NCBI RefSeq assembly: GCF_000737535.1
Contig: NZ_CP006269.1
Coordinates: 2,170,001-2,234,000 of the forward strand
Source of the DNA: Synechococcus sp. KORDI-100
GTDB taxonomy: Bacteria > Cyanobacteriota > Cyanobacteriia > PCC-6307 > Cyanobiaceae
DNA: 64,000 nt
Reading direction: 5' to 3'
Numbering within the stretch: the stretch's first letter is position 1; each line of letters opens with the position of its first letter. Both the position numbers and the translations under genes were made by a program. Positions 16,397 to 28,308 of the stretch are shown here, piece by piece. Below the pieces are notes generated by a model. It made no database searches and was not told the origin of the DNA. It saw nothing but the letters and a program-made list of their open reading frames with translations.

Positions 16397-16661
16397 TTGA
16401 ATGCGGTTGAAGAGGGAGTGGCTGCTTGACAGTCACACCCCAAGGGGCCGTTCAAAATGGACCTGAATCGTTGTTGATCCTGAGCGACAGCGATGACACA
16501 GGGAGCCGTCGACTCACCATCACAGGCGACGACATTGAGAACGCAGACAGGCCGACTGCCACATCGGAGTGGTTCCGCCAGGAACTGCTCTGGATGTTCG
16601 GACAAGTTTGTTGAATCGTGATAAGAACAGACATCTTCCGACGGTTGTGAGCGTCCGTGCG
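16397..16661. other. Non-coding stretch before HTH-like gene
   Basis: I see no convincing gene here. A TTG-started frame of 62 codons (16426-16614) has no recognised motif and no ribosome binding site. A short ccccaagggg inverted repeat is present without a T run. The stretch may hold the promoter of the following gene. Confidence 0.4.
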
Positions 16662-17183
16662 ATGAACAGCAGCCAGGTGGTCAGCCTTGGAACGCTTGAA
16701 GCCGATCTAGGGCTCAGCCGCGTTGATCTGCTGTTGGTGATCCGCGAAGTGGGAATCGAGCCGATCAGAAAGGGAATGCGCACCTGGATCCGACAGGATC
16801 AAGTGAGTGTTCTCTATCAACATCTCGGCAAGAGCAACCCTCAGGAGCCGCTGATCGCTGAAGTGGTACCAACCGCAGTCATCGATGACGCACCCCTCGT
16901 GCCACTGAATGCCTCCCCTGGACAAGAGGATGAAGATCTCAGGAAGTACTCAAAACTGCGACTTCTGCGGGAACGCATTGAAGTCCTTGATCTTCTGCAG
17001 ACCACGGGTGTGGAAGTACCCAGCCAGGAGATCTGTTCATTGCTCGATCTCAAACGTCTTCCGCCCTTGGAAGTCCTCAGTGATGGCATCGATGGCTTTC
17101 ACAGGATGGGGCTGGAGTTTCTCCGCATTCGAAGGGTGGGTCAGCGCTCAGCATGGAAAGTGAGGCGTTCGCAACACAATTGA
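16662..17183 (+). CDS. Hypothetical protein with HTH-like N-terminus
   Basis: About 173 residues from the ATG at 16662. Residues about 7-50 (SLGTLEADLGLSRVDLLLVIREVGIEPIRKG split by family-like turns, then TWIRQDQVSVLYQHL) resemble a MerR-type or excisionase-type winged helix: a helix-turn-helix, then a wing with Arg/Lys, then a third helix. The C-terminal half is acidic and helical (DLRKYSKLRLLRERIEVLDLL) with no recognised domain. A regulator role is inferred. It borders the AT-rich block and could act on it. Longer starts up to 16569 are possible but unlikely. Confidence 0.5.
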   Translation: MNSSQVVSLGTLEADLGLSRVDLLLVIREVGIEPIRKGMRTWIRQDQVSVLYQHLGKSNPQEPLIAEVVPTAVIDDAPLVPLNASPGQEDEDLRKYSKLRLLRERIEVLDLLQTTGVEVPSQEICSLLDLKRLPPLEVLSDGIDGFHRMGLEFLRIRRVGQRSAWKVRRSQHN

Positions 17184-17266
17184 ACGCAACGTTCCGAGAG
17201 CACTAACGGATACCACATCGTCTTCACAAACCCATTAGTTTTGATAGATCTTTTTAGTCTGGAACC

Positions 17267-17866
17267 GTGGCTGGTTTTACGACTGCATTCGCCACGGTTG
17301 CAGTTGCTGGAATTGGGGACAAGTCGTTTCTGACTGCCCTGGTCCTTGCAGCAAGACATAAGGCACGCTGGGTGTTCACAGGCAGTGTGTTGGCTCTCAC
17401 AATCGGAGCGGCACTTTGGATTGGAATCGGCGTCTGGTTGCGTTCACACATCTCCATGGATGTGATTCGCGTCGTTTCAGGCACAACATTTCTGGCGTTC
17501 GGCATCAAAGCCTTCCTCGACGCACGGCAGCACCATCAGCGAGAAAACACCCAAATCGATAGGCAACAAACAGCCGGAGCAATCACCAGCCTGCCTTGCC
17601 ACGCCGTGATTAGGGATTCGTTTACCACCACCTTTCTTGCTGAATTTGGGGATCGAACCCAGCTTGCCCTTCTGGCACTGGCTGCAGGTCCAAATCTGTC
17701 CACAGAAAGCATCTTCACTGGAGCCGTCAGCGCCAACATCGTTCTAGCCGTTGCAGCCGTTACATCAGGTAAATACCTAAAACAGAGCATCAGCCACAAA
17801 CGGATCTGTTTGATCAGTGGAGCACTTTTTACAATTCTGGGATTAAAGATTTTACTGACTTTGTGA
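17267..17866 (+). CDS. GDT1/TMEM165 (UPF0016) family cation exchanger
   Basis: A 199-residue membrane protein with two repeats of three helices. Family members exchange Mn2+ or Ca2+ for H+ across the plasma or thylakoid membrane, using two E-x-G-D-[KR]-[TS] signatures. The second is intact (EFGDRTQ, residues 126-132). The first reads GIGDKSF (residues 15-21), with Gly in place of the expected acidic ligand. The start is GTG at 17267. It is convergent with the pseudo-ATPase gene, 28 bases apart, and is the left gene of the ion-transport block. Substrate and direction cannot be told. Confidence 0.8.
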   Translation: MAGFTTAFATVAVAGIGDKSFLTALVLAARHKARWVFTGSVLALTIGAALWIGIGVWLRSHISMDVIRVVSGTTFLAFGIKAFLDARQHHQRENTQIDRQQTAGAITSLPCHAVIRDSFTTTFLAEFGDRTQLALLALAAGPNLSTESIFTGAVSANIVLAVAAVTSGKYLKQSISHKRICLISGALFTILGLKILLTL

Positions 17867-17894
17867 AATGATCCAGAAATCGGCCGATCGCCAA

Positions 17895-20027
17895 TCAGCC
17901 ATCCACTCTGGAAGCATTAGGATTGAGTGAAAGCAACGTATTGATTTCAGCAGCAATCGGAGCAAAGCGGAACAACACGATGGCTTGAAGTGGTGTTAAT
18001 CCAGCAAACAATGTCGCCAAGGACGTTGCCACTGAGGTCACTAAAATCATCGACGAATTGACATCAGTCGCTGAAACATATCGTCGACTCAGCGCAATCA
18101 AACGAGACAGCCACATCAGATCTCCACCAAGAATCACATCGCAGACAGTCTTCGATATAAATCCCGTATCATCTTCTGATAACCCGATCGCCAGATCTGC
18201 ACCGGCCATGGCAGGGATATCATCAATCACATCACCAAGGTAAGCCACAGTTGCACCGCCCCGCTGTAAATCAATCACCCGCTGATGGCGAAGCGTCGGC
18301 TCCTTTGAGTCGGCAGCATGGAACCCTCCAACAACCTCGGTTTTCAAACCGAGCGAATGCAACTGCTTGATCACAAAAGCAAGTTCAGGATCCGGAGACC
18401 ATCGAATCAGTAACGTCCCCAGCATTGCCTCACCGGAAGCAAACGAGATCTTAATATCATGACTAGGATTTTCAAGCTCTTTTGAGAGTTCTCCATGTTC
18501 AAATTTAATTGAAACAGGTTCTTTCCCGTCGAAACTGACAACGTACATCGATTCACATATCCAGCCCGCACTGACATTTAAAAAAGAAACTGATAAAGGC
18601 TTGAGGTCGGTTTCAGCCAAAACACCCCAGAAGACAATGGCCGGATCTGCTTGCATGGCCACAGCAACGGAATACAACATATGAATCAAGTCACCCTTGG
18701 CACAATCCGAATGAATGGCCTCCTCTCGAAGCTGAAAATCACCAAGATGCCGCAATGTATTGATACTGAACAGAACATGATCAACGCAGGAGAGTGACGA
18801 TATTGTTAAAGCGTCAGACATGTGCACTTGGTTCAAAGCCATATCAACAAGAGCCGTCTCCCCCGATGAAAGATTCGAAGATTGAATATCTTTGAATGGA
18901 TCAAATGCCAAAACAGCAATGGCCCGTTCTGTAAAACCGCCCAACAGAGACCACAAGCCGAAGCCGAGCTGAAGGGGTGACGCAAAGGCTCGATAACGTT
19001 TTTGGGATGGTGCTGATGATGATCGCAACTTTGACTGATTCTTAGCGTCGTGAATTGTCAGCACTGGAGTCTTTTCAAAGGTGTCAAGAACTTTGCAGAG
19101 CGCATCACCTTGAAGAACATAAGTGCCAAATTGAATCTCATCGCCAGGCAATAGCCTGTATGGCAGAGTGGAACCATCGACAAGAGTATTAACAACCAAC
19201 AGCTCACCCTTGATCAGTCGAGAGTGAAGGAAAACGTGAGAATCAGTTTTGATGTTGTAGAGCTGGCCAGCTGCAATATCACCAAGAGCAATTTGTGAAT
19301 CAAAAGGGACGAGTGACGATGGTTCGACAAGCGTCAGTTGAATATTTCGTTTTAAACGACCAATGAAGTCGTAAAACTCACGACTGCGTCCTTCGGGGTC
19401 CTGACTGATCGAGCGAATGGCCGATGTGGAATGCCCCATCAACTCATCAACAAACAACTCCCTCGCCAAACCACTGCCGATCAAAGCCGACGATAATGTC
19501 AACTCAACGGACGATGAGAGAAGAGATTCCATCGCAGCGGAATCACCAGAGCATCTCTTACGCAAGGCATGAAAGGTATGGCGAATCAGAGGGAAGCTGA
19601 CGAAGGTAGCCAGGACCGCCAGGGTCAGCGGCGGAATCACAAACAAAGAATCAAGTGCCAAGACAGAGGCACAAATCACACCACTACGAAGTGCATTACG
19701 AAAAGGTGGCCGTTCAACAATATCGGTGATTTGATTATCACGAGAGAGGGCCGATTCAACGTTTTGATCTGTAAAAGGGTCAACAAAACAACGGGTTAAC
19801 AACGCAATACAATGGTCTCGTTCAACACTCGGGAAACGAAGCACGACTGTTGATGAAACCACATTGATCCGATGACTGATCAACCAGTGAGTCCTGTGCA
19901 GAACGGACGCGCAATGCCGACGCAAGCCAAGTGAACTTGACAATCCTGGATGGTAAATTCTCAGACGACCATCAATCTCACTTCTGATCTCCCAAGAGTC
20001 CGACCGCTGATGAGTGGCAATCGTCAC
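17895..20027 (-). CDS. P-type ATPase homologue lacking all catalytic motifs
   Basis: A 710-residue protein that aligns by eye with the neighbouring 847-residue ATPase. Residues 12-75 form an HMA-like basic domain without CxxC (IRSEIDGRLRI). The later order of helices, actuator-like and P/N-like regions is kept, but the key residues are gone: DKTGT is replaced by SINTL (about 421-425, after CVDHVLF), TGES by VDGST (283-287), the TGD motif region by VGG (566-568), and GDGxNDxxAL by GDVIDDIPAM (598-607). It therefore cannot form the phospho-enzyme. It is likely a structural or regulatory partner of the active-type ATPase. The frame is intact over its whole length, arguing for selection rather than decay. 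It follows the next gene by 2 bases in an operon. Confidence 0.75.
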   Translation of the reverse strand: MTIATHQRSDSWEIRSEIDGRLRIYHPGLSSSLGLRRHCASVLHRTHWLISHRINVVSSTVVLRFPSVERDHCIALLTRCFVDPFTDQNVESALSRDNQITDIVERPPFRNALRSGVICASVLALDSLFVIPPLTLAVLATFVSFPLIRHTFHALRKRCSGDSAAMESLLSSSVELTLSSALIGSGLARELFVDELMGHSTSAIRSISQDPEGRSREFYDFIGRLKRNIQLTLVEPSSLVPFDSQIALGDIAAGQLYNIKTDSHVFLHSRLIKGELLVVNTLVDGSTLPYRLLPGDEIQFGTYVLQGDALCKVLDTFEKTPVLTIHDAKNQSKLRSSSAPSQKRYRAFASPLQLGFGLWSLLGGFTERAIAVLAFDPFKDIQSSNLSSGETALVDMALNQVHMSDALTISSLSCVDHVLFSINTLRHLGDFQLREEAIHSDCAKGDLIHMLYSVAVAMQADPAIVFWGVLAETDLKPLSVSFLNVSAGWICESMYVVSFDGKEPVSIKFEHGELSKELENPSHDIKISFASGEAMLGTLLIRWSPDPELAFVIKQLHSLGLKTEVVGGFHAADSKEPTLRHQRVIDLQRGGATVAYLGDVIDDIPAMAGADLAIGLSEDDTGFISKTVCDVILGGDLMWLSRLIALSRRYVSATDVNSSMILVTSVATSLATLFAGLTPLQAIVLFRFAPIAAEINTLLSLNPNASRVDG

Positions 20028-20029
20028 GA

Positions 20030-20569
20030 TCAGGCCACCTCAACAAAAGGTCGCCGAAGATTGATCGCCAGATCAAAAATAAAACTTGCCAACATCAAAA
20101 GCCAAAAACCGGGTGAAAGCGGCAAAAACAACCCGACAAAACCGATAACAAATATCGCTAAAGATGTTAAGAGTGCTGAGAGCGATAACGACAACGACAA
20201 ACCGTTAACAAACCATCGTGCAGGGCTGCTGAACCAACGCAACCGTAAACGTTCAACCGTCGTGGGTTCAACGATTTCTGTTGGAGAGAGGGGAATTTCC
20301 GGAACATCAATTCCTTGATGACTCAGTTGCGCACGAACTCGAAGCCAGACCAGTTGCGATAAATCTGATTGCGGTTGGGGCTGCGCATCGGCCTTGCAAA
20401 CAACCACCAATGAGCTCGCCGCCTGGTTCAAACGGAAGGACCACATAGAAGAAGGAAATGCCTGGTTGAGGTCGCTTGAGAAGCGCCGCCAATCCATGTT
20501 GTCGCCACAAAAGATTCGATACCGCCAGCGATGCCTGGTGGCATGGATCAGATTCAGCGAAGCACCCAT
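20030..20569 (-). CDS. HMA-like domain plus membrane hairpin protein
   Basis: About 179 residues from the ATG at 20569, which lies 5 bases after the ATPase stop. An earlier ATG at 20623 would overlap the ATPase. Residues about 5-60 look like a basic HMA-like domain without metal-binding Cys pair (LIHATRHRWRYRI ... SSLVVVCK). The C-terminal third has two hydrophobic segments around GFVGLFLPLSPGFWLLMLAS, similar to the PLLPGTPF hairpin of the protein at 24612-25043. It is probably a membrane partner of the flanking ATPase pair. Function unknown. Confidence 0.65.
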   Translation of the reverse strand: MGASLNLIHATRHRWRYRIFCGDNMDWRRFSSDLNQAFPSSMWSFRLNQAASSLVVVCKADAQPQPQSDLSQLVWLRVRAQLSHQGIDVPEIPLSPTEIVEPTTVERLRLRWFSSPARWFVNGLSLSLSLSALLTSLAIFVIGFVGLFLPLSPGFWLLMLASFIFDLAINLRRPFVEVA

Positions 20570-20574
20570 TGGAA

Positions 20575-23118
20575 TCAGGCCGCCATCACGTTGTAGAGAT
20601 TGCTGTCTTTGCAGTATGTCCACTGGAAACCATCTGGGTCATGCTCAGCAATCCAGGAGCTGAAATCGTCACGGCGACGACGAGCTGAAATCTTCTGATA
20701 GCTCACTCCAACGCGTTCTGAGAGTTCCGTCAACTTCAGAGGGAGGGAAGAACCGCGAGGTTGATTCAAAGGAACCACCTGATTCACAAGCGACTCAGCC
20801 GGCACATCAACCGCCGTGTCTGACTCTGCCGATGGGGACACTTCAGGTGACACTGAGCTTCTCGTGGGAAGCTCCTTGGCCTGGAAACCGAGTGCTCGAA
20901 TGGCATTGGCCGCTGCGACCAAACATGATCCATTGTTGAGAAAAACTGCGGCAATGGGGCTGACTGGAAGGAAGGTACCAATCACCAATGCCGACAGGTT
21001 GGGGACACCAACGATGCCGATGTTCTGCTTGACCAAAGAGAACGTATGTCGTGCCAGGTCCTGAGCAACGATCAGATCCGAAACCCGGTCGTTGGTTAGA
21101 ACGATATCTGCAGTTTCGCGTGCCAGGTCGCTTCCCGATGCAAAGGACACCGAAACATCGGCATAGGCGAGGGCTGCGGAATCGTTGATGCCGTCGCCGA
21201 CAAACACGACCTTTTTTCCCTGAGCGGTGAAGTGCTGGACCAGCTCCGCTTTTTGATCGGGAAGGGCATCGGAGTGAACTTCCTCAGGCTTCAGTCCGAT
21301 GTCTTTGGCAACAGCATGAGCAACAGGAGCAATGTCTCCGGTCAACATGTGCGCTTCGATGCCGCGGCGGTGCAACTCAGCAATCATGTCCGCAGTGTCC
21401 GGGCGAACTTGATCAAGGGCGTAGTGGATCGAGGCCAGTCGTCCATTCACTGAGAGATAGATGGGCGTTGCAACGCGAAGCTTGGGATCACTTTCAAATG
21501 AAGGAATCTCGACACGTTCTTCCTCGAGCAACTTGGAGTTGCCCAAGAGGACTGTCTGACCATTGACCTGGGCACAAACACCGCGTCCCACCCGGTAGTC
21601 CCAGCTTTCGCATTCGATCACAGACACTTCAGCCTCTTCCGCATAGTCACGGATGGCCTTGGCGATTGGATGATTCAGCCCCTGTTCAAGTGATGTTGAA
21701 AGTTGAAGACGTTCATGAACCTGTTTAGACGTCGGTGATGGAATTAGAGCACCGGAGTCGTCGAAAACAGAAACATGAACAATCGACGGATGGCCCTCGG
21801 TCAACGTTCCGGTTTTATCAAAAACAACCACATCAATTGTTTCAAGCTGCTCAAGAGCACGACCACTTCTGATCAACAATCCTTGGCTTCCTGCCCTCGT
21901 TAAAGCAGCCATGATGGCCGTTGGAACGGAAACCCTGAGACCCGTACCAAGATCAAACATCAGCAGTGATGCGGCCTGAGCGATATTTCCTGCACTCAGC
22001 AGCAGAGAGAGGCCTGCCAGAGCCAACGTCGGCATGACAAATCGATTCGCAACACTGGCTGCGAAATTTCCGACACGTGTATCGAAAACCGGAGCCTCTT
22101 CGATCATTTTAGTGATTTGACCCACACGGGTGTCATCGCCAACCGCGAATGTTTCGACAATGATATTTCCCTCAAGCACAATAAATCCAGCTAAGATTTC
22201 GTCGCCAGGGCCTGAATGTCGAGGGACAGATTCACCCGTAAGCTTAACAACATCTAGCGAAGCTTCTCCGGATTCGATGACACCATCAATGGGTATTTTG
22301 TCTCCAGGCAAGAAAACAACCCGATCTCCTGCCGTCAAATCAAAACTCGACACAATCACTTCACCGTCGTCGGTGAGCAGACGAACGTCGGATTGAAGAC
22401 TTGAGACCAGATCCGTGTTGGACGAATGAGCGATTCGCTGCGTGGCATCACGAACAGCCTCACCACCTTCGATCATCGTGATCATCATCGCGGGCCCCAG
22501 GAGGAACCCTTCAAGGCTGTGGAGAAGAACAGCCAATGCATCAAGGAAATCAACATTGATTTTCCTTTCTTTTTTCAGGCCGTCCCAAGCCCTTTTGAAA
22601 CTTAAGTGAGCCGAAACGATGATGAAACCACCAACGGCCAGAGGTGGTAGTGCGAGCGGTCCAGATAGCACTGCTAAAGCCAGAGAGCAGACTGGCAAAA
22701 TGATGCGAGTAGGTACAAATTTCTCATCATCCTCATCCATAGATTGTGAGGATTCAATAGCCGTTGTTGGTGTTTCCACGAATGGAATCAGCGGTATATC
22801 ACCACTATTCTGCGGGAGAGAATTCAACCACTGCAAAACATCAACCTTACGTCGGTTTGCAAACACAACAACAAAACAACAGGCCCAGCGATTGAAACGA
22901 ACGGATTCAACTTCACTAAGAGTTTTCAGGTGCCTTTCGAAATTATCCGGATCACTTAATCCCGGAGAAACGCTGAATCGCAGCCGCTTTGTTGAAGCAT
23001 GCATAATACGATCGATGAAGCGTGGAAGTCTTGGCGAACCTGCTTGGTCTTCTGGTCCACCAGATCCATCGATCACATCAAATCCGATCGTTTTGTCGAC
23101 TTGGAAAGAAGCAGCCAT
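20575..23118 (-). CDS. P1B-like P-type ATPase without CPC motif
   Basis: An 847-residue ion pump. Residues 34-98 form a cysteine-free HMA-like domain (IMHASTKRLRF). Then membrane helices, actuator LTGESVP (293-299), phosphorylation site DKTGTLT (434-440), nucleotide-domain NHPIAKAI (482-489), MLTGD (591-595) and GDGINDSAAL (641-650). All catalytic residues are present. The transport helix that normally reads CPC-x-P reads FDLGTGLRVSVPTA (388-401), so the thiol ligands and the preceding Pro are absent; the ion is probably not Cu, Zn or Cd, or is bound differently. Residues about 793-843 add a cyanobacterial helix-turn-helix-like tail (LTELSERVGVSYQKI ... DPDGFQW). It is first of three tightly spaced minus-strand genes. 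Confidence 0.85.
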   Translation of the reverse strand: MAASFQVDKTIGFDVIDGSGGPEDQAGSPRLPRFIDRIMHASTKRLRFSVSPGLSDPDNFERHLKTLSEVESVRFNRWACCFVVVFANRRKVDVLQWLNSLPQNSGDIPLIPFVETPTTAIESSQSMDEDDEKFVPTRIILPVCSLALAVLSGPLALPPLAVGGFIIVSAHLSFKRAWDGLKKERKINVDFLDALAVLLHSLEGFLLGPAMMITMIEGGEAVRDATQRIAHSSNTDLVSSLQSDVRLLTDDGEVIVSSFDLTAGDRVVFLPGDKIPIDGVIESGEASLDVVKLTGESVPRHSGPGDEILAGFIVLEGNIIVETFAVGDDTRVGQITKMIEEAPVFDTRVGNFAASVANRFVMPTLALAGLSLLLSAGNIAQAASLLMFDLGTGLRVSVPTAIMAALTRAGSQGLLIRSGRALEQLETIDVVVFDKTGTLTEGHPSIVHVSVFDDSGALIPSPTSKQVHERLQLSTSLEQGLNHPIAKAIRDYAEEAEVSVIECESWDYRVGRGVCAQVNGQTVLLGNSKLLEEERVEIPSFESDPKLRVATPIYLSVNGRLASIHYALDQVRPDTADMIAELHRRGIEAHMLTGDIAPVAHAVAKDIGLKPEEVHSDALPDQKAELVQHFTAQGKKVVFVGDGINDSAALAYADVSVSFASGSDLARETADIVLTNDRVSDLIVAQDLARHTFSLVKQNIGIVGVPNLSALVIGTFLPVSPIAAVFLNNGSCLVAAANAIRALGFQAKELPTRSSVSPEVSPSAESDTAVDVPAESLVNQVVPLNQPRGSSLPLKLTELSERVGVSYQKISARRRRDDFSSWIAEHDPDGFQWTYCKDSNLYNVMAA

Positions 23119-23147
23119 AATGAAAATTTGGGTGAGTTAAAGAAGGA

Positions 23148-23498
23148 TTATTCAACGGTGACGTCAGTAATCGTTGCTGCTTTCGACTTTTTAGGTGAAC
23201 CATTTTTGGTTACTTCTTTCTCGACGACATCTTCAGAAGACGATTCAGTTTTTGCCTCTTCAACAAGATCTACGAAGGATTCTGCTGCTTCTGCGGCGCT
23301 CTTTGCAACACCTCGAGCTACTTTGCCAGCTGCACTGGCTGCGACAATTCCAACTTTGACTCCACTTTTTGCCATGCTTCGACCAGCCTGACCCATCGAA
23401 TCCCCTAATTCCTGATTCCCCAATTTGCGGACAACTGGAGCCATCGCCATTAGCGCGGCTCCGGCACCAAAGGCGATAACCATCTCAAACTCGAACAT
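23148..23498 (-). CDS. DUF5132-like glycine-zipper protein, copy 1
   Basis: 116 residues. The N-terminus (MFEFEMVIAFGAGAALMAMAP) is a hydrophobic helix with Gly/Ala spacing; a Gly/Ala/Lys amphipathic part follows (SGVKVGIVAASAAGKVARG, then AAEAAESFVDLVEEAKTE) and a short charged tail. This pattern fits DUF5132, small proteins of unknown function often found beside HMA-like proteins and P-type ATPases. It may coat or bend a membrane; that is inference. It lies 29 bases before the ATPase gene on the same strand and is paralogous to the gene at 25047-25358. Confidence 0.7.
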   Translation of the reverse strand: MFEFEMVIAFGAGAALMAMAPVVRKLGNQELGDSMGQAGRSMAKSGVKVGIVAASAAGKVARGVAKSAAEAAESFVDLVEEAKTESSSEDVVEKEVTKNGSPKKSKAATITDVTVE

Positions 23499-23584
23499 GG
23501 GGCCTTAATCGTTCACGCAACTTTACTCTGATTTTTGTGATTTGATATGTTGATTTCCAAAAATGCACCAGCCTGCCGACAGCC

Positions 23585-24637
23585 GTGATCCGATTCCTCA
23601 GCAGCGATAGGTGTCGGACACTACATTCTTTGATCGACAAACTGATCCAGTCAAACGTCATCAACTCAAGGACGGCTTTGCTCGATGCCAGGGGAAATTT
23701 CGACGACCTGGCAACCCATTACAAAGAGTATGAATGGATACAATTTGATCATAATCAGACCCTTGAAGATCTTTGGAATGAATTAAGTCCCCATGCCAAA
23801 GAGTGGTGGGATCTCCTCGACATCAGCAAGAAGCAATCTCCAGAGCTTCCAGAATTACCAGGTCTTGAAGACATATCTCGACTAATTTTTATCTGCCAAA
23901 AACTCACGACAATCGATCAAGATGAAGATATGGTTGTTGTCTTACCGCATCCGAATCATGCCATCCAGCTACTTGGAATGGCGCAACAGGGTCCATTGTT
24001 GATCGAAAATCTTCTGGAACCGTTACTTAATTGGTGGGATAACACTAGAAAATCACTATCTGCAGTAGAAACTTTCCTCCGAATCAAGCTACCAACGTCT
24101 CAACAATTGAGACTGACACCACAATGGAGACAGAATTTTGAGACCCTTCAAGCACTCACGAATGATCGAAAAATACACCGTTTTTATTTGGTTCTTGATG
24201 GGGATCATCAAAACCAATCCAGCTTAAATCGACGTTTAAGCGTATGTGGCATGCACGCTGTTACTCCAAGCGCTTTAATTCTGAGCGATCTTGATATCGA
24301 GGTGATGGCTCAATTGAATGAGGAGTTAGATGCATCCATGATGACAACAACATCCATCGACAATCTAAACGAGATGACACTTAATCGTTTGGAGATTTCG
24401 ACGAAAGCCAATTTCGTATTAAACGAATCTCAACAATCAATTTCAATTTTTCTTCCTGGAGTAAGCAAAAAAGATCTTGTGATCAAACAAATTGGGGAAG
24501 TAGTTTTTTTATTTTATCTTGGCCAAAAGCGCGCACTGCATCTAACTGATTCTTTAAAAACACAAACCTGCCAAAAAGGGCAAATGCATCTTGGCTGGCT
24601 CACACTCCGTTTCAATCAGTTGGAACAGAATGCTTAG
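23585..24637 (+). CDS. ArsA/Get3-like protein without P-loop, with HSP20-like tail
   Basis: A 350-residue protein. The layout follows cyanobacterial ArsA-family ATPases: an N-terminal beta strand where the P-loop should be, a Rossmann-like body (MVVVLPHPNHAIQLL, FYLVLDGDHQNQSS), and a C-terminal alpha-crystallin-like domain at about 276-344 (SISIFLPGVSKKDLVI ... MHLGWLTLRF). In place of the GKGGxGKTT-type loop the sequence reads FLSSDRCRTLHS, so ATP hydrolysis is unlikely. The GTG start at 23585 was chosen. It is the only plus-strand gene inside the module, divergent from copy 1 of DUF5132 and convergent with the 24612 gene, overlapping it by 26 bases. A chaperone or scaffold role is inferred. 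Confidence 0.6.
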   Translation: MIRFLSSDRCRTLHSLIDKLIQSNVINSRTALLDARGNFDDLATHYKEYEWIQFDHNQTLEDLWNELSPHAKEWWDLLDISKKQSPELPELPGLEDISRLIFICQKLTTIDQDEDMVVVLPHPNHAIQLLGMAQQGPLLIENLLEPLLNWWDNTRKSLSAVETFLRIKLPTSQQLRLTPQWRQNFETLQALTNDRKIHRFYLVLDGDHQNQSSLNRRLSVCGMHAVTPSALILSDLDIEVMAQLNEELDASMMTTTSIDNLNEMTLNRLEISTKANFVLNESQQSISIFLPGVSKKDLVIKQIGEVVFLFYLGQKRALHLTDSLKTQTCQKGQMHLGWLTLRFNQLEQNA

Positions 24638-25043
24638 ATCCAGGTGGTCGCCAACCCAAGGCCCAGGCAAGCAGAAAAAAAGGTGTTCCCGGCAGAATCG
24701 GGAGAATCCAACCAAGAATGGCAAGAACAATCATTGATTGGGCCGTGATATGGCGAGCCCGACGATTGAATTGTTCTAGTCGTGTTGGTGGCAATTGAGG
24801 TCCAACAGCAATCGATTCAACGACAAAACAATCAATCCAATCTCTTAAATTAGCTGCATCTAATTCTTCAAACGGTCGATATGAGGTAATGACAACTCCG
24901 AATTGACCTGTCGTATATCTGAAAAGGTATTCTGGAAAACAATATTCAAAAGAAGCTTTTAAACACTGCTGCGTTTTTATAGAAAGTTTCGTACGAAACT
25001 TCAATCTCACACGCCCGGGCAAGACGTGCCGAATTTCAACCAA
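24612..25043 (-). CDS. HMA-like domain plus PGTPF membrane hairpin
   Basis: 143 residues. Residues 1-60 are a basic HMA-like domain opening with EIRHVLPGRVRLKF, the most canonical of the four such domains here; it has no CxxC metal site. The C-terminal third is a hydrophobic hairpin (MIVLAILGWILPILPGTPFFLL) close to DUF454/YbaN-type sequences. It lies 3 bases after copy 2 of DUF5132, so the two are probably co-translated. Function unknown; likely membrane-associated. Confidence 0.7.
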   Translation of the reverse strand: MVEIRHVLPGRVRLKFRTKLSIKTQQCLKASFEYCFPEYLFRYTTGQFGVVITSYRPFEELDAANLRDWIDCFVVESIAVGPQLPPTRLEQFNRRARHITAQSMIVLAILGWILPILPGTPFFLLAWALGWRPPGSKHSVPTD

Positions 25044-25046
25044 TGG

Positions 25047-25358
25047 TCAAGATTTAGAGGACGTTGCTGGTTTGACAGCAGCTTTTGGCTCGGCGAGATC
25101 AGCCTTAGCCTCAGCGAGAATGTCGCCAAAGCTCTCTCCAATTTCACTCAAGCCAGATTTCATCCCGGAGAAAACACCTGAAAACTTGGAGCCGATCACA
25201 AGTCCCACCTTGAGACTTTGCTTTGTTAGACCACGTCCAGCGCCAGAGATGGTTTTGGTCACACCACTCTCTTTTCCTGCAACGGAAGCAGCGATCGGCG
25301 TCAGAGCGACCAGACCGGCACCGATGCCGAAAGCAATGAGGTACTCCAGCTCAAACAT
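25047..25358 (-). CDS. DUF5132-like glycine-zipper protein, copy 2
   Basis: 103 residues. It opens MFELEYLIAFGIGAGLVALTP, nearly the same as copy 1, then a Gly/Ser/Lys-rich part (LKVGLVIGSKFSGVFSG, SEIGESFGDILAEAKADLAE) and an Ala/Lys/Ser tail. Repeated GxxxG-type spacing suggests helix packing in or on a membrane. It is the first gene of a small operon with the HMA-hairpin protein. About 100 bases of AT-rich sequence upstream probably hold its promoter. Confidence 0.7.
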   Translation of the reverse strand: MFELEYLIAFGIGAGLVALTPIAASVAGKESGVTKTISGAGRGLTKQSLKVGLVIGSKFSGVFSGMKSGLSEIGESFGDILAEAKADLAEPKAAVKPATSSKS

Positions 25359-25463
25359 GGGAATTCAACATGATCTGTGAAATCTAGAGACCTTTTGAGC
25401 TTTTGTGAAGTGCCTGTGATAACAATGAGCCGATTCGCGCATCTCAGCACATCGATTGCCGAC

Positions 25464-26126
25464 TCAACTGACCTGAGTCACCAACGAAAGAATGATCGAC
25501 AGGACCGTCGAAGCAAACAAAAAGGCCGCGATGCAATGAATGATCACAACACGACGAATCGCAGAATCTTCAACGCTGCAGTCGGTCATTGAGTAAGTCA
25601 AGCCTATGGAGTAGGCCACGTAGAGAAAATCGCTAAAGCTAGGTTCTGAACCCTGAAAGACAAATGCCTGTTGGGCTTCGTTGGCTTCCAAAGCACGGGG
25701 ATTTTGCTCAAAATAACTCTTTGCATAATAAATTGCGAAGCCGTTGTGTAATTGCAACCACGCAAGGAACAACGAGATAAATGTCAAGAAAATTTGAACA
25801 TAATCCGGCAATATATTTTTCTTATCGTGCAGATCATTGATGCAGAAACAAAGCAGTCCCACACTCATAAAAACAAGAGCCACTGTGCGTAATGCGACAT
25901 AGGATTCAACTGATTGCCAACGCGCAAAGACTTGACGTGTTTCATGCATGGAAAGTGTCCAAGTCTTGAGATAAAGCGTCAACAGATCCCAGACCAATGC
26001 CATCGTGATGGAAATCGTGAAGGCCTCTTTCAAAGTCACCAACTGAATCAAGATCAACGTGCTGACAATTCCGACAAGCGAGGAACGGATCAAACGAAAT
26101 CGATCGGAAAGAAAGCGGGGATGCAT
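25464..26126 (-). CDS. DUF1345 family membrane protein
   Basis: 220 residues with five or six hydrophobic helices. The family core is seen: FSDFLYVAYSIGLTYSMTD followed by RRVVIIHCIAAFLFASTVLSIIL. DUF1345 proteins have no assigned function. It lies 3 bases after the antiporter gene on the same strand, so both are likely in one transcript. Codons are A/T-rich. Confidence 0.8.
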   Translation of the reverse strand: MHPRFLSDRFRLIRSSLVGIVSTLILIQLVTLKEAFTISITMALVWDLLTLYLKTWTLSMHETRQVFARWQSVESYVALRTVALVFMSVGLLCFCINDLHDKKNILPDYVQIFLTFISLFLAWLQLHNGFAIYYAKSYFEQNPRALEANEAQQAFVFQGSEPSFSDFLYVAYSIGLTYSMTDCSVEDSAIRRVVIIHCIAAFLFASTVLSIILSLVTQVS

Positions 26127-26129
26127 CGT

Positions 26130-27599
26130 TTAAGCTAGAGGGTCTGCAACCAATTTTGAATTAGCTGAAATCCGTTCATGTAACTTAGGTATAAAGACAG
26201 ACTTCACCAACATTGAAATAATGACCGCGCCGCACACAGAATTTGCCATGAGTTGATAGGCTTGTAGAGGCGCTAATTCTATTAAATTGATCTGAAACAT
26301 TTCTTCCAACAGTACTGGAGCTTGCACAACCAAAGCCATTGAAACAGCGCCCTTAGGACTCCAAGAGGACAAAACTCTTTTCTCATCAGTAGCGATCGTT
26401 TCGCTACGGAGAAAAAGCCGAACGCAAACCGGTCGAATGGCGATGACTCCAAGCCAGACATAAATAGCAACAGGGAAATCAATCAAGAACGATTTAGCAT
26501 CTAAACCAAGACCTATGGCAAAAAAGAGGATCGCTTCACAAGCAATATTCAAAGATTCCAACTCCTCACTCAGAAACTCGATTTCATCTTCAGTTGATGA
26601 ACTTCTGTACGACAGAGACGTCACAATCCCCATGACGAGCGCACAGAGATATCCCCCGTGACGCAAAGACAAGTCTGAAAATGCATAACCAAGTATCGTA
26701 AAACCAAATGCCACAAGAACCAGTTGAGGCTTTGAAGTTACAAAATGTCGAATGACAAGATTCAACAAATAGCCAAGGATCATTCCGCAAACAACGCCTA
26801 GAAGAATGCCCTTGAAAATATCTTGTAATAACACAAGTGAATTCGTTGTTGTATATTCAGGATTAATTTGAAGCCACAAAAGCACAAGGATCTCCGCTAC
26901 AGCAACTGAAATTGCAGCTGAAATAGCTGTTTCAACTTTGAAAACATTGGTCAGCACAGTTTGAAACTTTTTTACTTTTCTTGCAACGAAAGAAAATGAA
27001 TTCCAATCACTAACAGACAATGAATAGATAATGACGACTGTAATTAGTGTAAGAACTCCATTCTCGACACCCTCCGCATAACCGAACCTCTGAAATAGTC
27101 CCAAGCCGAATCTGACATATACCAACCAGAACAACATGCTAAACGCTGTACCAAAAAGTGCTAACTGCATTGAACTAAACAACAAATTACTTCTCTTTAG
27201 GAGCAAGCGGTCTGATGTTAGACCACTAAAAAAGAGCAGCACACACAATGCGATGACGTGAACCTGCTCAAGGGGGATTGTCTCGAATGTGAAATTTTCT
27301 ATATTGATGAATAATCCAAGAAAAAATAGAAATATTGAGCCGGGGATACTTAATTTTATTCCAAATTTATCGCAAAATATGCTAACGATTAGAAGCAGGG
27401 CAAACGCGACAAGTGTGGTCTGAAATGAAATCTCCAGAGAAGGAATATCTCTTGAAGAATTTTCTAAGACATCAGGAATATTGTTTTCAGATGCGAAAAA
27501 ATACAACGAAGTCGTACTGAACACTGAATAACCAGATCGTTGATTAATTCTGTCTAAGACAACAGAATTCCAATACCGCAGGTGAGGAAATGCTGACAT
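26130..27599 (-). CDS. Na+/H+ antiporter homologue (CPA1/NhaP-like)
   Basis: About 489 residues from the ATG at 27599, with around 12 hydrophobic helices beginning near FALLLIVSIFCDKFGIKLSIPG. LLFFSGLTSDRLLL and SSWSPKGAVSMALVVQAP match the NhaP-type fold, the latter being the conserved region with the GxVS/ALxxQ core. The helix 5-6 signature is altered: the usual TDPVA reads SDWNS, and the ES-x2-ND motif reads ETAISAA, keeping the acidic first residue but losing the second. Ion specificity is therefore uncertain. A longer start at 27680 would overlap the divergent carbonic anhydrase. It shares an operon with the DUF1345 gene. Confidence 0.8.
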   Translation of the reverse strand: MSAFPHLRYWNSVVLDRINQRSGYSVFSTTSLYFFASENNIPDVLENSSRDIPSLEISFQTTLVAFALLLIVSIFCDKFGIKLSIPGSIFLFFLGLFINIENFTFETIPLEQVHVIALCVLLFFSGLTSDRLLLKRSNLLFSSMQLALFGTAFSMLFWLVYVRFGLGLFQRFGYAEGVENGVLTLITVVIIYSLSVSDWNSFSFVARKVKKFQTVLTNVFKVETAISAAISVAVAEILVLLWLQINPEYTTTNSLVLLQDIFKGILLGVVCGMILGYLLNLVIRHFVTSKPQLVLVAFGFTILGYAFSDLSLRHGGYLCALVMGIVTSLSYRSSSTEDEIEFLSEELESLNIACEAILFFAIGLGLDAKSFLIDFPVAIYVWLGVIAIRPVCVRLFLRSETIATDEKRVLSSWSPKGAVSMALVVQAPVLLEEMFQINLIELAPLQAYQLMANSVCGAVIISMLVKSVFIPKLHERISANSKLVADPLA

Positions 27600-27657
27600 T
27601 TTCCCAGGTGTCCAATGCTGATTATTATTGAAATAAATAGTTAAAGCGAATGCATTT

Positions 27658-28308
27658 ATGGGATTGACATCCGGTTCCACTTATATCGATTCAGGAGGGC
27701 AGAAAATCTCACCTGAGGACATCGTTGTCGAATTAAAGGTCGGGTTGCAGAGATTCCTTGATGGACGATCGGCTCATCCTCACGCAACCGAAGCACGCCG
27801 CCACCAACTCGCCGGCGGACAACACCCCCAGGTTGCTGTTCTGGCCTGCTCCGATTCCCGGGTTCCTGTCGAGGTGATTTTTGATGCTGGTTTCGGGGAC
27901 TTGTTTGTGATCCGCAATGCAGGAAACACGAACACCTTCGGATCCGCAGGCTCGATTGAATATGCCGTTGCAGACCTGGGCATCCGAGTTCTCCTTGTGA
28001 TGAGCCATCAGGGCTGTGGTGCCGTGAAAGCCGCCTACCTCACAGGCCAGAGCTTTTCCCCGTCGCTCAGCGAATTGGTGTCCGACATCAAATCAGGATT
28101 GAACAACCACGGTTTCAGAACTGACGATCTCAACACCTACGAACAAGCCTGCATCGCTCATTCGAGGATCACTGCAGAGGCACTCGTTCAAAGCAGCGAG
28201 ATCATCCGTGATGCCGTCAGCAGGAAAGCACTGATTGTTCAACCCGCTTTTCTGCATATCGATCCACTCTCCATCACATGGCTTGATCCGCTTTACGGCG
28301 ACGCTTGA
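27658..28308 (+). CDS. Beta-class carbonic anhydrase
   Basis: 216 residues. Zinc ligands Cys64, His117 and Cys120 and the Asp66-Arg68 pair are in ACSDSRVP and [20 protein letters not shown] is the third family motif. It interconverts CO2 and bicarbonate. No signal peptide and no carboxysome-targeting extension are visible, so it is probably cytoplasmic. It is divergent from the antiporter gene (58 bases between the chosen starts) and convergent with queA (16-base overlap). The position suggests a link between ion/pH exchange and inorganic carbon, which is inference. Confidence 0.92.

Follow-up and report, generated by a model that had tools for sequence, protein, structure and literature searches.

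An apparently transferable P-type ATPase gene block of picocyanobacteria and its association with calcyanin-type proteins

The DNA analysed here (the window: 64,000 nucleotides of the single-contig, 2.789-Mb genome of Synechococcus sp. KORDI-100, contig NZ_CP006269.1, positions 2,170,001 to 2,234,000) carries a block of 12 genes at window positions 16569-28308, among them an active-type P-type ATPase, a catalytically dead P-type ATPase, a Get3d-like protein without a P-loop, small glycine-zipper proteins and a carbonic anhydrase. That this block is one co-inherited system, apparently a transferable one, is strongly supported, since its genes keep together in differing surroundings. Its ATPase accompanies calcyanin-type proteins, which are defined by three glycine-zipper repeats and a variable N-terminus. 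We see roughly even chances that the block belongs to an older cyanobacterial gene set tied to these proteins, in which an alkaline-earth pump and its scaffold would work alongside carbonic anhydrase and antiporters. Cyanobacteria with intracellular stores of amorphous carbonate (also of Sr and Ba) have one known marker gene, and one ATPase type accompanies that marker wherever it was detected; the block thereby offers a candidate pump with a set of partners, testable in a transformable carbonate-forming strain.

A gene block conserved as one unit

The block encodes the following genes (lengths in amino acids, aa; HTH, helix-turn-helix; E, expectation value):

16569-17183, plus strand: regulator-like gene, 204 aa, HTH-like by eye, no Pfam family over the cut-off; accompanies the block
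17267-17866, plus strand: GDT1-type divalent cation/H+ exchanger (Pfam GDT1, E 1e-33); accessory
17895-20027, minus strand: pseudo P-type ATPase, 710 aa, weak N-terminal HMA_2 match, no DKTG or TGES
20030-20623, minus strand: 197-aa protein, HMA-like N-terminus and DUF454-like hairpin; 49-base overlap with the active ATPase gene
20575-23118, minus strand: active P-type ATPase, 847 aa, M4 motif FDLGTGLRVSVP in place of CPx, C-terminal HTH-like domain
23148-23498, minus strand: DUF5132-like small membrane protein (a)
23585-24637, plus strand: P-loop-less Get3d, ArsA/Get3 fold with an alpha-crystallin-type C-terminus
24612-25043, minus strand: 143-aa protein, HMA-like N-terminus and DUF454-like hairpin
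25047-25358, minus strand: DUF5132-like small membrane protein (b), glycine-zipper spacing
25464-26126, minus strand: DUF1345 membrane protein (Pfam, E 3e-29)
26130-27680, minus strand: NhaP-like Na+/H+ exchanger (Pfam Na_H_Exchanger, E 5e-15), true start probably further in; accessory
27658-28308, plus strand: beta-carbonic anhydrase (Pfam Pro_CA, E 1e-29)

An earlier sequence-only reading of the window had listed 11 of these genes (17267-28308), all of which are present and read as it described; it overlooked the regulator-like gene. Its description of the block as AT-richer also holds, with a guanine-plus-cytosine (GC) content of 0.475 against 0.616 in the flanks. Over six blocks of the same genus (the window's and L025-L029), GC ranges from 0.456 to 0.475 against 0.58-0.63 in the flanks; blocks of other genera lie within 0.04 of theirs. 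The same-genus blocks stay AT-rich although their dead ATPases have diverged to ~45% identity, a lack of amelioration that is unexplained.

To follow the block through related genomes, we used the dead ATPase as bait in an order-level sample of 299 genomes, with three candidates scored per genome. It was found in 16, the window's own included, and 20 kb around each of the 18 matches in the 15 other genomes were fetched and annotated by profile. All 15 of these same-family genomes contain ten core genes, namely those for the regulator, the dead ATPase, the 197-aa protein, the active ATPase, the two DUF5132-like proteins, the P-loop-less Get3d, the 143-aa protein, the DUF1345 protein and the carbonic anhydrase. 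Fourteen loci (L025-L034, L039-L042) hold the core as one block of 9-12 kb, and in the fifteenth genome (G045) two contigs (L038, L066) share it between them. The dead-ATPase matches at L035-L037 are additional copies, situated elsewhere in genomes with a full block of their own. GDT1 occurs in the window's block and five other blocks of the genus, NhaP in the six same-genus blocks and a few others. The surroundings vary between genera, as judged by eye, and the dead ATPase was unmatched in 14 of 20 listed genomes of the window's genus. Chance gathering is excluded because each of the 15 other dead-ATPase genomes carries the gene set as well, and an independent placement of the genes is likewise refuted by their conserved co-occurrence. 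The sequence-only reading had proposed one system and held that this idea would fail if the genes rarely occurred together elsewhere; the outcome was the opposite, with core genes consistently together in differing neighbourhoods.

A contig scan gave 21 loci, 19 of them blocks of this type and two ordinary P1B ATPases (L062, L063). All ten core genes were matched at E 1e-4 in six of the 19 (L046, L047, L048, L051, L053, L056), while most of the remaining ones are cut by contig ends; judged by their equal lengths, the contigs of L046, L047, L056 and L061 are identical with those in G280, G139, G165 and G045, and these loci are thus not independent. In L058, which lies away from a contig end, the 3.9 kb of upstream sequence yielded no 143-aa protein, carbonic anhydrase or DUF1345. 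Two deep relatives in genus g28 (G203, G298; loci L064, L065) encode most of the same families in a different order.

The active ATPase accompanies calcyanin-like proteins

The 847-aa ATPase, which the sequence-only reading had called active-type, keeps its catalytic motifs TGES, DKTGT, GDGIND and HP and matches NCBIfam TIGR01525 (P1B family). In both respects it resembles the heavy-metal ATPases CopA and ZntA, yet where these have CPC in M4 the block ATPase has GTGxR. Its motif FDLGTGLRVSVP, devoid of the CPx-type cysteines, does not vary among the 15 aligned rows. The M4 Asp, Thr-Gly and Arg, with no cysteine in GTG copies, would argue against a soft transition metal, and an alkaline-earth cation is the suggested substrate because the ATPase co-occurs with carbonate formers. 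Its C-terminus (window 20578-20790) gives a weak HTH_AsnC-type match (E 0.054). Such a domain at the end of a pump is unusual, and in L032 it is encoded as a separate frame.

In blocks of genus g9 and in several named metagenome-assembled genomes, a protein of ~300-350 aa is encoded between DUF5132 and carbonic anhydrase; its N-terminus is of HMA type, and it has three repeats of the glycine-zipper kind. We built a profile from this protein (A5) and a second one of 13 rows (A6) that includes its counterpart from Thermosynechococcus elongatus BP-1; 15 positions are invariant in all 13 rows, 14 of them glycines and one a glutamate. Against the BP-1 genome A5 scores E 4e-26, and the protein it matches there is presumably the published calcyanin. 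HMA_2 is clear in the proteins of L155, L157 and BP-1 (E 2e-10 in the latter), and a total of 4 of the 13 A6 rows give a match at E 0.05. A5 homologs, in stop-to-stop frames 327-377 aa long, occur in G387, G522, G467, G627, G545, G517 and G383, whereas G395, G514 and G605 match over the glycine-zipper part only; the calcyanin-like proteins of G517, G383 and G605 have N-termini that, by eye, are not HMA-like. We take G517 to be Gloeomargarita and G395, G514 and G605 to be Microcystis. G387 and G522 are taken as T. elongatus BP-1 and strain CL-1, respectively, in keeping with excerpts of PMC7005997, and BP-1 is described in part of another report as forming intracellular carbonate (PMC6087745). 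BP-1 can also be transformed naturally (PMC7005997); its GTG-type ATPase gene lies at G387:C1:671400-673457.

The two genes tend to share genomes. In the order sample, A5 was found in 10 and the ATPase in 18 of the 299 genomes; all 10 are among the 18 and none among the other 281. All 18 carriers, which are picocyanobacterial, have the GTG type, 8 of them without an A5 match. Across the phylum (386 cyanobacterial genomes, cut-offs E 1e-8 for A5 and E 1e-130 for the ATPase family, the two scans being taken as the same genome draw), 14 genomes contain A5 and 51 the ATPase family; all 14 lie inside the 51 (hypergeometric p 9e-14), and every one of them carries a GTG copy. For each of the 44 carriers that do not belong to the picocyanobacterial family, we read the M4 motif from the reported ATPase copies (of our family labels, f1 is probably Cyanobiaceae and f7 Nostocales-like). 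GTGIR occurs in 11, comprising ten with A5 matches and G622, which was left out of the 14 A5-positive genomes. The other 33 have ATG, CTG, VTG, ITG or MTG at this place and none has an A5 match; G605 carries a VTG copy besides its GTG copy.

The A6 profile gave a concordant picture, with 41 of 292 genomes matched at E 1e-6 and eight full-length homologs, all in GTG carriers. When all candidates were scored, no full-length A6 homolog was found in 15 of the 33 non-GTG genomes (the remaining 18 lay outside this recheck), and the partial matches in those 15 all cover the HMA half, except for one glycine-zipper match of 65 positions (G306). Likewise with all candidates scored, no third ATPase copy turned up in eight two-copy non-GTG genomes, and none of the family at E 1e-80 in G512, which belongs to the genus of the Microcystis-like carriers and shows no more in the A6 scan than a glycine-zipper fragment of 119 aa on the edge of a contig.

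A quick ATPase tree (87 rows after prior omission of 18 loci, support as Shimodaira-Hasegawa-like approximate likelihood ratios (SH-aLRT) only, long branches flagged) has three clades, one of the picocyanobacterial ATPases (99), one that unites GTG copies from other genomes with their GSG, GTGK and SHS paralogs (90), and one of the 43 non-GTG copies (100). The GTG copies are not one clade, as the second and third group together, with the picocyanobacterial clade as their sister. In seven calcyanin-carrying genomes (L146-L152) there is a further ATPase copy whose M4 reads GSG or GTGVK.

Besides sharing genomes, the genes are in places neighbours. The 8.6-Mb, Nostocales-like genome G622 holds, within ~23 kb, a GTG ATPase, a second ATPase, DUF1345, DUF5132, a dead ATPase without DKTG and, both recognised by eye, a DUF454-like hairpin protein and a Get3d-like protein with a degenerate P-loop. 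The same stretch encodes a 416-aa protein that combines HMA_2, an HTH-like domain and a glycine-zipper part (A5, E 1.5e-6), and this protein also matches the HTH-like domain with which the picocyanobacterial ATPase ends (E 5e-10). In G605 the calcyanin-like gene adjoins two DUF5132 genes and an HMA_2-DUF454 gene. Two distant cyanobacteria thus have pieces of this block close to their calcyanin-type genes. The calcyanin parallel drawn by the sequence-only reading is thus stronger than it had proposed, with a calcyanin-architecture protein inside sister blocks and the ATPase family co-occurring with such proteins across the phylum.

Members without catalytic motifs

The 710-aa ATPase lacks DKTG and TGE(S) and retains only GDVIDD. 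Its AlphaFold2 model, made from 15 aligned members, nonetheless adopts a P1B/P-type ATPase fold (mean pLDDT, the predicted local distance difference test score, of 72) with a TM score of 0.71, by target, against ZntA (4umw), in agreement with the earlier view of a catalytically dead ATPase. Decayed pseudogenes are ruled out, the frame being open over ~680-720 aa in all 15 aligned rows. Its N-terminus matches HMA_2 below the cut-off (E 0.001), as do 4 of the 15 members at E 0.05. The 143- and 197-aa proteins, read earlier as HMA-like hairpin proteins, have no Pfam HMA_2 match; what holds are weak DUF454 hairpin matches below the cut-off (E 4e-6 and 0.045) and profile comparisons, which join their N-terminal domains to the dead ATPase N-terminus with probabilities of 86% and 92%. 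By the same method the N-termini of the dead ATPase, the 143-aa, the 197-aa and the calcyanin-like protein are interlinked at 79-92%, while the active ATPase profile links to the dead ATPase at 86% and to the other HMA-type N-termini at 7-40%. The extra dead-ATPase paralogs in g9 genomes (L035 7932-12534, L036 8829-11219, L037 8765-11029), one of them a tandem pair, adjoin transport and oxoprolinase/hydantoinase-like genes, as named by eye.

The second member of this kind is the ArsA-like protein, whose missing P-loop the sequence-only reading had pointed out and which we identify as a Get3d. Its AlphaFold2 model (pLDDT 85) is closest to Get3d structures (8elf/8egk, E ~1e-15), it matches ArsA_HSP20 just below the cut-off (E 2e-4), and it shares with AtGet3d and NosGet3d/All4481 the Get3 fold and the alpha-crystallin-type C-terminus. 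However, Get3d proteins keep their P-loop, which is called well conserved in the relevant part of PMC10248533, whereas the deviant Walker A is absent, by eye, from all 15 aligned members of the block's protein. A canonical Get3d is thereby ruled out; in the window genome, the Get3d family model recovers nothing but this gene of the block, far below the cut-off. Conserved as they are, these catalytically dead proteins appear to be working parts. The two DUF5132-like proteins of the earlier reading are borne out as well: (b) matches DUF5132 just below the curated cut-off (E 4e-5), and (a), which has no Pfam match, is tied to it in that the search with each recovers the other's ortholog in the fetched loci.

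Proposed mechanism and alternative explanations

In the mechanism we propose, the GTG-type ATPase would export an alkaline-earth cation (Ca2+ first, also Sr2+, Ba2+ or Mg2+) from the cytosol, either to the periplasm or to a compartment enclosed by membrane. From what is known of their families, the dead ATPase and the HMA/hairpin proteins may join the active ATPase as a scaffold, with HMA-type (CoBaHMA-like) domains binding one another or lipid head groups, and the DUF5132 glycine-zipper proteins, in sister blocks also the calcyanin-like protein, could pack in or around the membrane patch. The P-loop-less Get3d might shield or deliver the hairpin and small membrane proteins, the carbonic anhydrase would set local bicarbonate, and GDT1 and NhaP would swap the cation or Na+ for H+. 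A membrane patch that moves divalent ions together with bicarbonate chemistry, as the sequence-only reading had envisaged, is plausible. Calcyanin-like matches were absent from the window genome with both A5 (all 19 candidates scored) and A6 (all 6 scored), which sets it apart from the calcyanin-bearing carbonate formers despite its block. Because no calcyanin-like gene was found, the block of this strain most likely buffers alkaline-earth ions and forms no large carbonate granules; granules in this strain we consider improbable.

Several observations weigh against tying the block to calcyanin-type genes and alkaline-earth transport. The calcyanin-like gene was not found in the five same-genus genomes with a block, just as in the window's own. 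The ATPase and the calcyanin-like gene of BP-1 lie at 671 kb and 9 kb, they are far apart in G517 (the inferred Gloeomargarita), and they are non-adjacent in other Thermosynechococcus-like genomes also. The genomes are not independent of one another, and the genus-level test is weaker (7 of 7 within 31 of 142, p 1e-5; both p values are uncorrected for phylogeny). The large scans scored the best 2-7 first-look candidates per genome, so that misses are possible outside the rechecked genomes, and among the partial A6 matches (33 of 292 genomes, mostly to the HMA half) some short glycine-zipper stretches could be divergent calcyanins. Not every block is complete, for L060 is without DUF1345 or the regulator, L044 (Synechococcus AG-670-F04) is without the dead ATPase or NhaP, both away from contig ends, and the stretches covered of the deep g28 blocks and the G622 cluster yielded no carbonic anhydrase. 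As a naturally occurring case, the L044 block could show whether such a system can do without the dead ATPase.

An unlikely, if still considerable, alternative is that the block serves low-salinity or ion-stress homeostasis in brackish and freshwater picocyanobacteria, its pump and antiporters adjusting Na+, H+ or Mg2+/Ca2+ with no mineral or storage role. Several of the named loci are freshwater or estuarine by name, and NhaP and GDT1 are present in same-genus blocks. Moreover, among the brackish-niche genes in the part of Dore et al. 2020 (PMC7522525) that bears on this, a P-type ATPase, which may or may not be that of the block, is common to clade VIII and subcluster 5.2. A role in salinity does not, however, predict that the ATPase family accompanies calcyanin-type genes in thermophiles and Microcystis-like genomes, and the 14 same-genus genomes without a dead-ATPase match may speak against it as well. 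Alternatively, the block could be an inorganic-carbon/pH module: H+ movement powered by the ATPase or by the antiporters would let carbonic anhydrase hydrate CO2 close to a patch of thylakoid, and any transport of cations would be incidental. The carbonic anhydrase and DUF1345 of all 15 other core blocks, and the antiporters of many, would fit such a module; we nevertheless judge it improbable, given that the g28 and G622 versions show no carbonic anhydrase in the stretches seen and that the ATPase family extends far beyond any link to this enzyme.

Very improbable, finally, is a ferrosome-like transition-metal organelle storing Fe or another metal. The block does share with the ferrosome (fez) clusters a P1B-type ATPase and small membrane proteins, and a related CTG subtype of the ATPase has an M4 cysteine; the GTG copies, on the other hand, lack it. 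FezC is a DUF4405-like cytochrome according to part of PMC11334425, and a Pfam search for DUF4405 gave no match among the block's proteins, for which reason membership is not supported. The interpretation of the sequence-only reading is thus borne out in part, with the gene set confirmed, the single system strongly supported, the calcyanin parallel strengthened and the ferrosome parallel unsupported.

Returning to an alkaline-earth system tied to calcyanin-type genes, its most far-reaching form is one that we offer tentatively and with some doubt: brackish and freshwater picocyanobacteria would carry a transferable alkaline-earth storage, the GTG ATPase would be the missing pump of intracellular carbonate formation, and the active and dead ATPases would form a complex served by the P-loop-less Get3d. 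According to the relevant portion of PMC11773610, carbonate-storing cyanobacteria have not yielded any cation-pumping ATPase of equivalent function. Excerpts of PMC12710302 relate that metal-permease copy numbers do not separate calcifying from non-calcifying cyanobacteria, and put GDT1 forward as a possible Ca2+ transporter of magnetotactic bacteria that calcify. Excerpts of PMC7771541 describe a glycine-zipper gene, glzT, upregulated at low salinity in LTW-R, which could not be matched to a block gene. Our own literature search, of limited coverage, yielded no match for CoBaHMA or DUF5132. CoBaHMA domains on P-type ATPases have reportedly been described already. The distribution of the block predicts which picocyanobacteria merit microscopy.

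Additional observations

Three contigs labelled Rhodopirellula and Deltaproteobacteria (L043, L045, L052) contain picocyanobacterial blocks, with ATPases 75-87% identical to that of the window, and are probably mis-binned. The longest NhaP frame of the window begins within the divergent carbonic anhydrase gene (window 27658-27680), and a later start is suggested by where homologs align, which is from residue 64-77 in L026-L029 and from residue 16 in L025.

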